A stretch of DNA of 64,000 nucleotides from Nitrospirota bacterium (lineage in GTDB: Bacteria > Nitrospirota > Thermodesulfovibrionia > Thermodesulfovibrionales > UBA6898): assembly GCA_021783515.1 (NCBI GenBank), contig JAJXTV010000009.1:1-64000 (forward strand). The letters are read 5' to 3'. The first letter of the stretch is position 1. Each line of letters opens with the position of its first letter. A program made the position numbers and the translations under genes. Shown here piece after piece: positions 31,005-33,530 of the stretch. Below the pieces are notes generated by a model. The model worked only from the letters and a program-made list of their open reading frames with translations. It ran no database searches and was not told where the DNA came from.

Positions 31005-31769
31005 TCACTTGAGGAAGGAGGCGAATATCTCCTTCCCATATTTCAGGGTCTCCCTGAGTGAGTAAAGCTCGCCTTTTCCCAGATCGGGATTCCTCTTTCT
31101 CCATGCGGCCGCGTGCGCCCTGGAACAAAAGAAGTTCATGTACGGGCAGAAGGTCTTTGCCGTGCATCCGCATTCCCCGCTGTCGCTGACGAACTGAACG
31201 ATGCCTCCCGGATCGGACGAGACTATTACGCCGCCTTTCATTCTGATGGTCATTTCGTTTTCGCATTCAGGGCAGCGGGAGTGCACCGCAAGAGGGCTCT
31301 CAAGCATGAAATGGATGCCGAGGGCGTCGGTGGCGCAGAGGGCGTAGACCTCATGCCCGTCCTGAAATACCACCCTATGGCGCGTCTCCTCCGCGGAAAA
31401 CGGATACGAGGAAATGATCCTGTCTCCTTCCTTTGTCACTATGTCCGCCTCGTTCAGTCTTGCGACGATTCTCCTGGCGGCGCTGACGGAAGACAGCTTC
31501 ATCTCGTCCTTCAGGCCAACCAGCGTCGGCGGCCTGCCAGTTGCCGCAAATTCTCTGAGAATATATTTTCTCCCGGCGTTCTCCAGGGGACTGAGACCCG
31601 CCCCGGCGATGAGGCCCCGCACCGTTTCTGAAATCCGGTCCAGCAGCTGCTTCCCGGCCCGCCTTCCGGAGGATCCGTCCTGCCGTGAAGTCCGGCAGGC
31701 CCTGACCGCCTTTCTCAGCGTCGCCTCCGTCGGGACATTCGAGAGTCCGCCAGACTCTCCCCGGAACAT
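31005..31769 (-). CDS. Alkylmercury lyase (MerB)-like protein, likely C-terminal part of a UGA-recoded fusion
   Basis: 254 residues if started at ATG 31769. From residue 55 it resembles MerB: a winged-helix-like region, then RHRVVFQDGHEVYALCATDA with the catalytic Cys and Asp three residues apart (C96/D99 of MerB), CPECENEMTIRM and CPYMNFFCSRAHAAAW where the second catalytic Cys would lie. MerB cleaves C-Hg bonds. The first 25 residues (MFRGESGGLSNVPTEATLRKAV) instead look like the end of a thioredoxin-like domain whose beginning is in the upstream frame. The ATG has no properly spaced SD and lies one codon after an in-phase UGA, so this is probably translated as part of a single 31005-32402 product. 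Confidence 0.8.
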   Translation of the reverse strand: MFRGESGGLSNVPTEATLRKAVRACRTSRQDGSSGRRAGKQLLDRISETVRGLIAGAGLSPLENAGRKYILREFAATGRPPTLVGLKDEMKLSSVSAARRIVARLNEADIVTKEGDRIISSYPFSAEETRHRVVFQDGHEVYALCATDALGIHFMLESPLAVHSRCPECENEMTIRMKGGVIVSSDPGGIVQFVSDSGECGCTAKTFCPYMNFFCSRAHAAAWRKRNPDLGKGELYSLRETLKYGKEIFASFLK

Positions 31770-31775
31770 CCTTCA
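31741..31775 (-). promoter_or_regulatory. In-frame UGA with SECIS-like hairpin
   Basis: UGA is at 31775-31773. The mRNA downstream forms a perfect 7-bp stem GAGAGUC/GACUCUC (31759-31753 with 31747-31741) with loop UGGCG. The loop begins 20 nt after the UGA and has G at its second position. A lower GGG/CCC pairing extends it. Bacterial SECIS elements have just this size and spacing (loop 16-37 nt from UGA). Structure is read by eye. Confidence 0.55.
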
Positions 31776-32402
31776 GGAAAACCCGACCGCCCCCTGCGGC
31801 TGAAGTTCTTCTCCGTTTATAAATACCGACGGAGAGCCGGTCACCCCGAGGGCCGCCGCCTCGGCCTCGCCGATCCGATGAAAACTCACCTCCGCTTCAG
31901 TCTTTTCAGCGGTCAATGCACGGTCGATGTTATGCCTCAGCGCGCCTTCCGAACCGCAGTCCCCCGACATATAGCAGTCGATCTTCATAATATCCGCCCC
32001 CTTACAGCTGTCGAGCGCATCGAGCACAGGACACTCGCTCACCCGTTTGTCTTCCGTACACGTTTTCGTGAGGGATTCGAGCGCATCCCTCATCCTCCGG
32101 AGCATCCCGATCTTCCCGTCTATTTCGGCAATCTTGCTCTCGGCCTTTCTCTTTACGGCGCCGCAGGCAGCAGTCGGATCGAGTTTCAGGGAAAGGAGCT
32201 CTGATATCTCGCACAGAGAGAAGCCGAGTTCCTGGGCGTGCCTGATAAAACGGATACGCGTGACCGAGTCGCTGAGGTACTGGCGGTATCCCGATTCCTT
32301 CCGTTTCGGGGAAGGCAGAAGCCCGCGCTTTTCATAGTAGCGGACCGTGTCGATACTCACCCCGGCCTCTTTTGCCGCCTGACCTATCTTCAGATACTTC
32401 AC
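31773..32402 (-). CDS. MerR-type regulator fused to thioredoxin-like domain (ends at in-frame UGA)
   Basis: 209 residues from GTG 32402 (AAGGAG 6 bases upstream). Residues 1-70 are a MerR winged helix (LKIGQAAKEAGVSIDTVRYY). The Hg(II) triad is present with exact MerR spacing: Cys in TAACG, then 35 residues to Cys in KTCTE, then 9 to Cys in VSECPV. Residues 135-209 are thioredoxin-like: KIDCYMSGDCGSEGALRHNI and the cis-Pro motif GVTGSPSVFINGEEL. The frame meets UGA right after GAVGFS, where related domains have a Cys (GLSCRVYR type, from memory), and continues in the same phase into the MerB-like part. A full product would be 465 residues. Confidence 0.85.
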   Translation of the reverse strand: MKYLKIGQAAKEAGVSIDTVRYYEKRGLLPSPKRKESGYRQYLSDSVTRIRFIRHAQELGFSLCEISELLSLKLDPTAACGAVKRKAESKIAEIDGKIGMLRRMRDALESLTKTCTEDKRVSECPVLDALDSCKGADIMKIDCYMSGDCGSEGALRHNIDRALTAEKTEAEVSFHRIGEAEAAALGVTGSPSVFINGEELQPQGAVGFS

Positions 32403-32418
32403 CGATATCTCCTTATTT

Positions 32419-32451
32419 ATTATAAACTCTTGACCAGAGTCCAGAGTCAAG
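32419..32451 (-). promoter_or_regulatory. MerR-type promoter/operator
   Basis: On the minus strand TTGACT (32450-32445) and TATAAT (32424-32419) are separated by 20 bp, the over-long spacer that MerR-family activators correct by twisting DNA. The dyad CTTGAC/GTCAAG (32429-32451) lies across it. It drives the MerR-thioredoxin-MerB locus, implying autoregulation. Confidence 0.85.
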
Positions 32452-32501: not shown

Positions 32502-33530
32502 ATGCGCGATATCGACGGCAGCTACGGAGAGGGCGGCGGGCAGATCCTCCGGACCGCGCTGGGCCTCTCCTGCCTCCTGCGGAAACCCTTCCGGCTCTTC
32601 AACATCCGAAAGGGCAGGAGAAAGCCGGGCCTCATGCCCCAGCACCTCGCCTGCGTCCGGCTGCTCGCCCTGATCTCAAAGGCAAAGGTGCATGGCGCAG
32701 ACGTCGGCTCGACGGAGCTGCTCTTCGAGCCGGGAGAATCCGGGTCCGGCGACTATTTCTTCGACATAGGCACGGCCGGCTCGACTTCGCTCCTCCTGCA
32801 GGCGGCCGTTCCTCCGTTGATCTTCGCAAAGACCCCCTCCCGCATCACCCTCGCCGGCGGCACCCATGTCCCCTTCAGCCCGCCGTTTCAGTTCATAAGC
32901 GAGGTCTTTCTCCCTATGCTCGGCAGACTCGGGATAGGGGTTTCGGCCTCGCTCGACCGCTACGGCTTTTATCCAAAGGGCGGGGGAAAGATCTCGGCAG
33001 TCCTGAATCCCTGCCGAAAGATATGCGGCATTTCTTTCGAAGAACCGGGCGCTATCGTCTCGGTGAGCGGCGTCTCTGCCGTTGCCGGCGGACTTCCCCC
33101 GAGCATCGCCGAGCGCCAGAAGAGGTCAGCCGGGGCGGCCCTTGCGGGGATGCCGGTGAGGCCGTCGATAGAGGCGCTCCGGGTCGATACCTATAGCCCC
33201 GGAACCTTCGTGTTTCTCAAGGCCGAAACGGAGACCTCGGTCTCGGGCTTCTCTTCTCTCGGGGAAAGAGGAAAAAGGGCAGAGACGGTCGGGGAAGAGG
33301 CGGCGAGGGAACTCCTCCGCCATCTTGAAGCAGGCGGGTGCCTCGACCCCCGCCTCGCCGATCAACTGGTCGTCTATCTCAGCCTTGCAGAAGGCCCTTC
33401 GTCATTCACCACATCGCGCATCAGCGGACACCTTCTGACGAACCTCATGGTGATCAAGACATTTCTCGGTACCCGATTCCTGGTCGAGGGAGAAAAAGAA
33501 AGGCCCGGCAGAGTAAAGATTATCCCTTGA
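32502..33530 (+). CDS. rtcA: RNA 3'-terminal phosphate cyclase
   Basis: 342 residues. Hallmarks of RtcA: IDGSYGEGGGQILRTALGLS at the N-terminus, HGADVGSTELLFEP, GTAGSTSLLLQA, and GGGTHVPFSP-like segment, with the C-terminal adenylylation region (ISGHLLTNLMVI; the nucleophilic His). It converts RNA 3'-phosphate to a 2',3'-cyclic phosphate using ATP. RtcB and RtcR are not nearby. A TATAAT at 32490-32495 ends six bases before the ATG and there is no SD, so the message may be leaderless. It is divergent from the MerR locus. Confidence 0.95.
   Translation: MRDIDGSYGEGGGQILRTALGLSCLLRKPFRLFNIRKGRRKPGLMPQHLACVRLLALISKAKVHGADVGSTELLFEPGESGSGDYFFDIGTAGSTSLLLQAAVPPLIFAKTPSRITLAGGTHVPFSPPFQFISEVFLPMLGRLGIGVSASLDRYGFYPKGGGKISAVLNPCRKICGISFEEPGAIVSVSGVSAVAGGLPPSIAERQKRSAGAALAGMPVRPSIEALRVDTYSPGTFVFLKAETETSVSGFSSLGERGKRAETVGEEAARELLRHLEAGGCLDPRLADQLVVYLSLAEGPSSFTTSRISGHLLTNLMVIKTFLGTRFLVEGEKERPGRVKIIP

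Follow-up and report, generated by a model that had tools for sequence, protein, structure and literature searches.

Several described systems share parts with the locus considered here. The MerB lyases of mer operons (plasmid MerB and MerB2) have the same fold as its lyase part, with a C96-D99-C159 triad. The SAO system (SaoL/SaoT), which is linked to selenium, also pairs a MerB-like lyase with a selenoprotein of thioredoxin-like type, but as separate proteins; passages of PMC13188914, citing Haft and Gwadz 2023, give the selenocysteine motif as 'CU' in SaoL and 'UxxC' in SaoT. Passages of that paper and of PMC9312934 also record selenocysteine in a MerT-like protein, a putative mercuric reductase, HgcA and HgcB as well as SaoL, and those searched list neither a thioredoxin(Sec)-MerB protein nor a MerR fusion. 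Actinobacterial 'alkylmercury lyase family proteins' (for example WP_006438313.1, Nocardia farcinica plasmid) show the same thioredoxin-MerB arrangement from end to end, at about 31-33% identity, but with Cys in place of selenocysteine. The same thioredoxin-like domain, with its Sec/Cys position, appears as family DF (NF049942, 'hypothetical protein DF') in the deep-Sep paper, which reports the DF selenocysteine in Desulfosediminicola flagellatus only and mentions neither mercury nor MerR (PMC12013277).

How does the present locus compare with these? It lies in the window, the whole 64,000-nucleotide stretch that was analysed, in the genome of a sediment-type bacterium of the phylum Nitrospirota. 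A single minus-strand frame runs from a GTG at 32402, preceded at 6 nt by the Shine-Dalgarno sequence AAGGAG (32409..32414, minus strand), to the stop TGA at 31007-31005, and its sole interruption is a UGA at 31775-31773. With that UGA read as selenocysteine, the gene (31005..32402) would encode 465 residues. MerR and the thioredoxin-like portion upstream of the UGA account for 209 residues; beyond it the same frame runs on to 31005, giving 254 further codons to the stop when counted from an ATG at 31769. The sequence-only reading had seen MerR, thioredoxin-like and MerB-like parts in one frame, and Pfam and NCBIfam agree on all three. It described the thioredoxin-like domain as cut by the UGA, resuming in the same phase and closing with the tail FRGESGGLSNVPTEATLRKA, which is how the sequence reads, and it observed that the ATG downstream of the UGA has no spaced Shine-Dalgarno sequence; AAGG in fact abuts this ATG with zero spacer. 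A second start may lie at an internal ATG at 31988, eight bases after the Shine-Dalgarno-like UAAGGGGG (31997..32004, minus strand), from which the thioredoxin(Sec)-MerB portion alone (327 aa) would be made. Identity to relatives is 56-58% across this whole 327-residue span, on either side of the UGA, and because of this the continuation of the frame past the UGA is not a matter of chance. Annotation software would split the gene in two, since the UGA looks like a stop.

Does the UGA encode selenocysteine? Conservation, a Cys partner, RNA structure and the decoding machinery together indicate that it almost certainly does (residue 210, 31773..31775, minus strand). The thioredoxin-like domain was found at E<=1e-5 in 55 of 396 Nitrospirota genomes, nearly all of which carry one TGA within it, and the aligned sequences place this TGA in one shared column, within GFSUR[ML]F, flanked on both sides by strong identity. 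Matches that lack a TGA occur in three Nitrospirota genomes only, and all are weak. A homologue with a genuine stop would have spoken against selenocysteine; among relatives with a confident match, none was seen to end at this column, and the UGA is kept, with coding homology downstream, in more than 50 Nitrospirota genomes, chiefly in small genes that encode about 100 aa. The Cys partner that the sequence-only reading proposed does exist: plasmid proteins of Nocardia, Rhodococcus and Streptomyces (L094, L095, L096) have TGC at the UGA column and align along the full 327-residue thioredoxin-MerB stretch. A real stop or a recent pseudogene was also considered, and rejected on the strength of the conserved UGA and the conserved sequence beyond it. 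No phage homologues were found.

The genome can supply the decoding apparatus that the same reading proposed looking for, as selA, selB, selC and selD are all present. selA and selB sit on one contig and the tRNA-Sec has the anticodon TCA. The selD gene (L053, G000:C22:1771-2688) has its own in-frame UGA near the N-terminus, in SCAGU (SCAGUAAK), and is itself a likely second selenoprotein gene of this genome.

The UGA is followed by a SECIS-like stem-loop (31733..31771, minus strand; -18.7 kcal/mol), in keeping with bSECIS elements in that it stands just downstream of the UGA and has a G in the apical loop. Its upper hairpin spans 31759-31741 (minus strand), and the apical GG, 22-23 nt downstream of the UGA, is invariant in the sequences compared. 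The bacterial hairpin was tested by hand, an Rfam scan of the area having shown only a tRNA above gathering score. The RNAalifold consensus is weak (4 pairs, no double changes), since the paired bases do not keep one register from sequence to sequence, and a per-sequence synonymous-codon test was therefore used instead. In stability the hairpin exceeds at least 75% of its synonymous recodings in 26 of the 30 sequences (p<=0.25) and at least 90% in 19 of the 30 (p<=0.1); these sequences are mutually related, so that pooling them does not yield an exact p. A few sequences use different codons here, and in them the 5' arm pairs again in a shifted register. The signal was weaker (mean p 0.34) when an earlier version of the test took in a longer region, and the window hairpin alone, compared with dinucleotide shuffles, has z = -1.8.

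The thioredoxin-like domain itself (31692..31988, minus strand; C143, C149 and U210) is supported by NF049942, AlphaFold2 (AF2) and Foldseek. The NCBIfam model NF049942, 'DF family (seleno)protein', matches across the UGA (residues 143-232, E=4.6e-10), and at 39-44 bits (E 4.6e-10 to 1.7e-11), below the curated cut-off of 70, the domain is a relative of this family and is not filed as a member. The AF2 model of this part has a mean pLDDT of 86, and its best Foldseek matches are thioredoxins, with weak E-values. The last helix, which completes the fold, lies after the UGA, so that termination at the UGA would leave the fold incomplete.

At the amino terminal end, the MerR domain (31989..32402, minus strand; 138 codons) is matched by the Pfam MerR HTH and MerR-DNA-bind families (PF13411, PF09278). 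The model for Hg(II)-sensing MerR, TIGR02051, gives 127 bits, below its cut-off of 150.85, yet is the best-scoring model. The Hg(II) cysteines are at the 35 and 9 residue spacing noticed in the sequence-only reading: Cys80 (32165-32163), Cys115 (32060-32058) and Cys124 (32033-32031), all on the minus strand. A MerR-type promoter and operator (32419..32450, minus strand) precedes the gene and was identified from the sequence and by comparison with four related genomes (L049, L050, L051, L052), where a similar element precedes merR. It consists of a -35 TTGACT (32450-32445) and a -10 TATAAT (32424-32419) separated by 20 bp, an over-long spacer typical of Hg(II)-sensing MerR operators, with the dyad ACTCTGGACTCTGGTCAAGAGT (32447-32426) placed between them. 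The Hg(II) cysteines and the operator are intact, and since MerR keeps C80, C115 and C124 and the operator stands before its own gene, Hg(II) should control expression. The operator lies in a 99-bp gap between the fusion gene and the divergent rtcA (RNA 3'-phosphate cyclase, 32502-33530, plus strand).

The lyase noted behind the thioredoxin-like domain is a clear match to the MerB catalytic domain (31023..31400, minus strand): Pfam PF03243 covers residues 335-460 with E=4.8e-31 and 107.8 bits, against a gathering score of 27. Alignment to MerB and MerB2, including the MerB structures 5c17 and 1s6l, shows an intact Cys-Asp-Cys triad in which Cys356 (31337-31335), Asp359 (31328-31326) and Cys419 (31148-31146; all minus strand) are the equivalents of C96, D99 and C159. 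The MerB equivalogs NF033555 and NF009710 reach 57-62 bits against cut-offs of 193-200, and the SaoL model NF040728 reaches 73.4 bits against a cut-off of 140. The full-length AF2 model, with a mean pLDDT of only 70, matches MerB2 and the metal-sensing MerR structures CadR, PbrR and CueR. Compared with MerB of mer operons, the lyase is fused to the selenocysteine-type thioredoxin domain and MerR, and the genome has no MerA over the cut-off; its selenocysteine is found solely in the thioredoxin-like domain and not in MerB, whereas passages of PMC13188914 place the SAO motif in both SaoL and SaoT. CPEC and CGC motifs are additional features of the MerB part, and are absent from the actinobacterial proteins.

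Where did such a fusion come from? The selenocysteine form of thioredoxin-MerB, without MerR, was found in three other Nitrospirota genomes, as the closing gene of mer operons. The order is merR-merA-thioredoxin(Sec)MerB in SKS1.bin124 (G002), whose reductase qualifies as a true MerA (530 bits, with the cut-off at 454), and merR-merT-merP-merA-small ORF-thioredoxin(Sec)MerB in WY3.bin163 (G020), with merT and merP recognised by eye. In BP4.bin67 (L057) the contig begins inside merA, and the end of that gene is followed by a small ORF and thioredoxin(Sec)-MerB. One more genome, G011 (L051:5215 onward), has the selenocysteine-type thioredoxin behind merA; the match stops shortly beyond the linker by which the relatives continue into MerB, G011 gave no match to a MerB part, and perhaps it lost its lyase part. 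In Actinomycetota the Cys-type thioredoxin-MerB goes with a separate merR. In Nocardia and Rhodococcus this regulator stands directly upstream and has the 35/9 cysteine spacing seen in the window; merR overlaps the lyase gene by ATGA in these two genera and in Mycobacterium, and in Streptomyces the regulator is divergent and does not overlap. In the window the MerR frame passes directly into the thioredoxin-like domain via a short linker. A search of 150 relatives with the entire protein turned up no further in-frame MerR-thioredoxin-MerB, and since no other searched genome shows MerR in frame, the evidence for the triple fusion comes from a single assembly. Judged by this distribution, thioredoxin(Sec)-MerB is an older fusion and the join with MerR is the rare part.

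Taken together, the features described are those of a gene that is probably an autoregulated organomercury-detoxification gene making a selenoprotein. The MerR domain would occupy the operator immediately upstream of its own gene, and Hg(II) bound to C80, C115 and C124 would turn on the promoter with the 20-bp spacing. SelB and tRNA-Sec, guided by the downstream hairpin, would then decode the UGA at 31775 as selenocysteine. The MerB domain (C356-D359-C419) could break the C-Hg bond, and the thioredoxin-like domain (C143, C149, Sec210) might accept organomercury or the resulting Hg(II) or pass either on, or else keep the MerB cysteines reduced. Most simply, Sec210 with C143 and C149 would form a high-affinity mercury relay or a reductant beside the lyase. 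That mercury is the substrate we infer, and the idea draws support from the thioredoxin(Sec)-MerB genes adjoining true mer genes in G002, G020 and L057. Could a single 465-residue chain be both regulator and enzyme? Conceivably, one polypeptide is activator and selenoenzyme at once, with MerB-released mercury handed to the Sec/Cys domain and from there to its own MerR cysteines, so that the product drives its own expression; it would then destroy methylmercury in a predicted methylmercury producer, the genome also carrying hgcAB. This more elaborate scheme is put forward tentatively.

Some features count against the favoured explanation: MerR is in frame in one draft genome only, an SD-like site and an ATG stand inside the gene at 31988, and the MerR, MerB and DF-family scores are all below the NCBIfam cut-offs. 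The fate of Hg(II) is also left unexplained, because the genome has no MerA over the cut-off. The internal start raises the prospect of two products, a full-length MerR-led chain acting mainly as regulator and a thioredoxin(Sec)-MerB enzyme begun at ATG 31988. The placing of UAAGGGGG is as this would need, and thioredoxin-MerB is a protein of its own in the relatives and in actinobacteria, with the merR overlap already described; the open MerR-thioredoxin frame and the short linker, however, are what a true fusion predicts, and we consider the two-product arrangement somewhat doubtful. That the join of MerR and thioredoxin is an assembly error is very improbable. It was seen once, in a draft genome, but it lies inside a 103-kb contig with operator, MerR, thioredoxin and MerB in order, GC3 is even over the three parts of the gene (0.70, 0.71 and 0.72), and the actinobacterial gene pairs show that adjacency of MerR and thioredoxin occurs naturally.

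The protein might also be a selenoprotein devoted mainly to another organometal(loid), such as organoarsenicals. Pairs of merR and Cys-type thioredoxin-MerB adjoin arsM on a Mycobacterium gallinarum plasmid (L097, L108) and arsR-ACR3-arsC in Rhodococcus qingshengii (L096), hinting at an organoarsenic or mixed metal(loid) duty, and one standalone selenocysteine-type thioredoxin gene (L059) has, as judged by eye, a permease-like gene on one side and ArsR-like and ACR3-like genes on the other. Such a role is nevertheless unlikely here, given a MerR with the Hg(II) spacing, an intact MerB triad, and nearest relatives that place thioredoxin(Sec)-MerB behind merA, in one case with merT and merP. Least credible of all is the mechanical ORF call, under which the UGA, as in most genes, stops translation and leaves a 209-aa MerR ending in a truncated thioredoxin, with a 254-aa MerB made separately from ATG 31769. 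Against it stand the UGA and downstream protein sequence shared by so many genomes, the Cys at this column elsewhere, the hairpin, the selenocysteine machinery, an ATG lacking a spaced Shine-Dalgarno sequence and the thioredoxin helix encoded beyond the UGA. In L097 a second copy of the Mycobacterium gene is annotated at just 501 bases and is apparently broken.

Selenocysteine would sit within the very protein that is predicted to degrade organomercury. Mercury is held more tightly by selenolates than by thiolates, and for this reason the Sec and Cys forms of thioredoxin-MerB offer a natural test of what selenium contributes.

The genome (3.16 Mb, 98.7% complete, a draft of 48 contigs) has one MerB, that of the fusion gene, and three MerA candidates, none above the MerA cut-off. 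It also carries hgcA (393 bits, motif NVWCAAGK) and hgcB (123 bits), both above NCBIfam cut-offs; the two share a contig with the fusion gene and lie about 48 kb from it (C8:79997 onward, within region L103:3740-5298, that is C8:79739-81297). Two Nitrospirae genomes with hgcAB and merB were reported earlier, and the presence of both in one genome is seldom reported (PMC9948709). In one survey HgcAB was absent from all MerB-only genomes (PMC8261052), a finding that the source genome, with MerB, hgcAB and no MerA over the cut-off, would contradict. HgcA is above cut-off in 54 of 150 genomes of the order, and is present in the source genome (G000), G002 and G020, which carry thioredoxin(Sec)-MerB, and in G011, with its selenocysteine-type thioredoxin behind merA. 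The occurrence of HgcA alongside these genes in four related genomes is a lead and not a correlation. The co-occurrence with hgcAB bears on methylmercury turnover in anoxic sediments.

There is a consequence for annotation as well, as such merB genes, like the short Nitrospirota thioredoxin selenoprotein genes, are likely mis-called, truncated at the UGA. The standalone thioredoxin-like genes of Nitrospirota (L040, L043-L048, L059, L061, L076-L093) are mostly about 100 aa, probably missed or truncated by annotation, and match the DF-family model as relatives only; all have the UGA.
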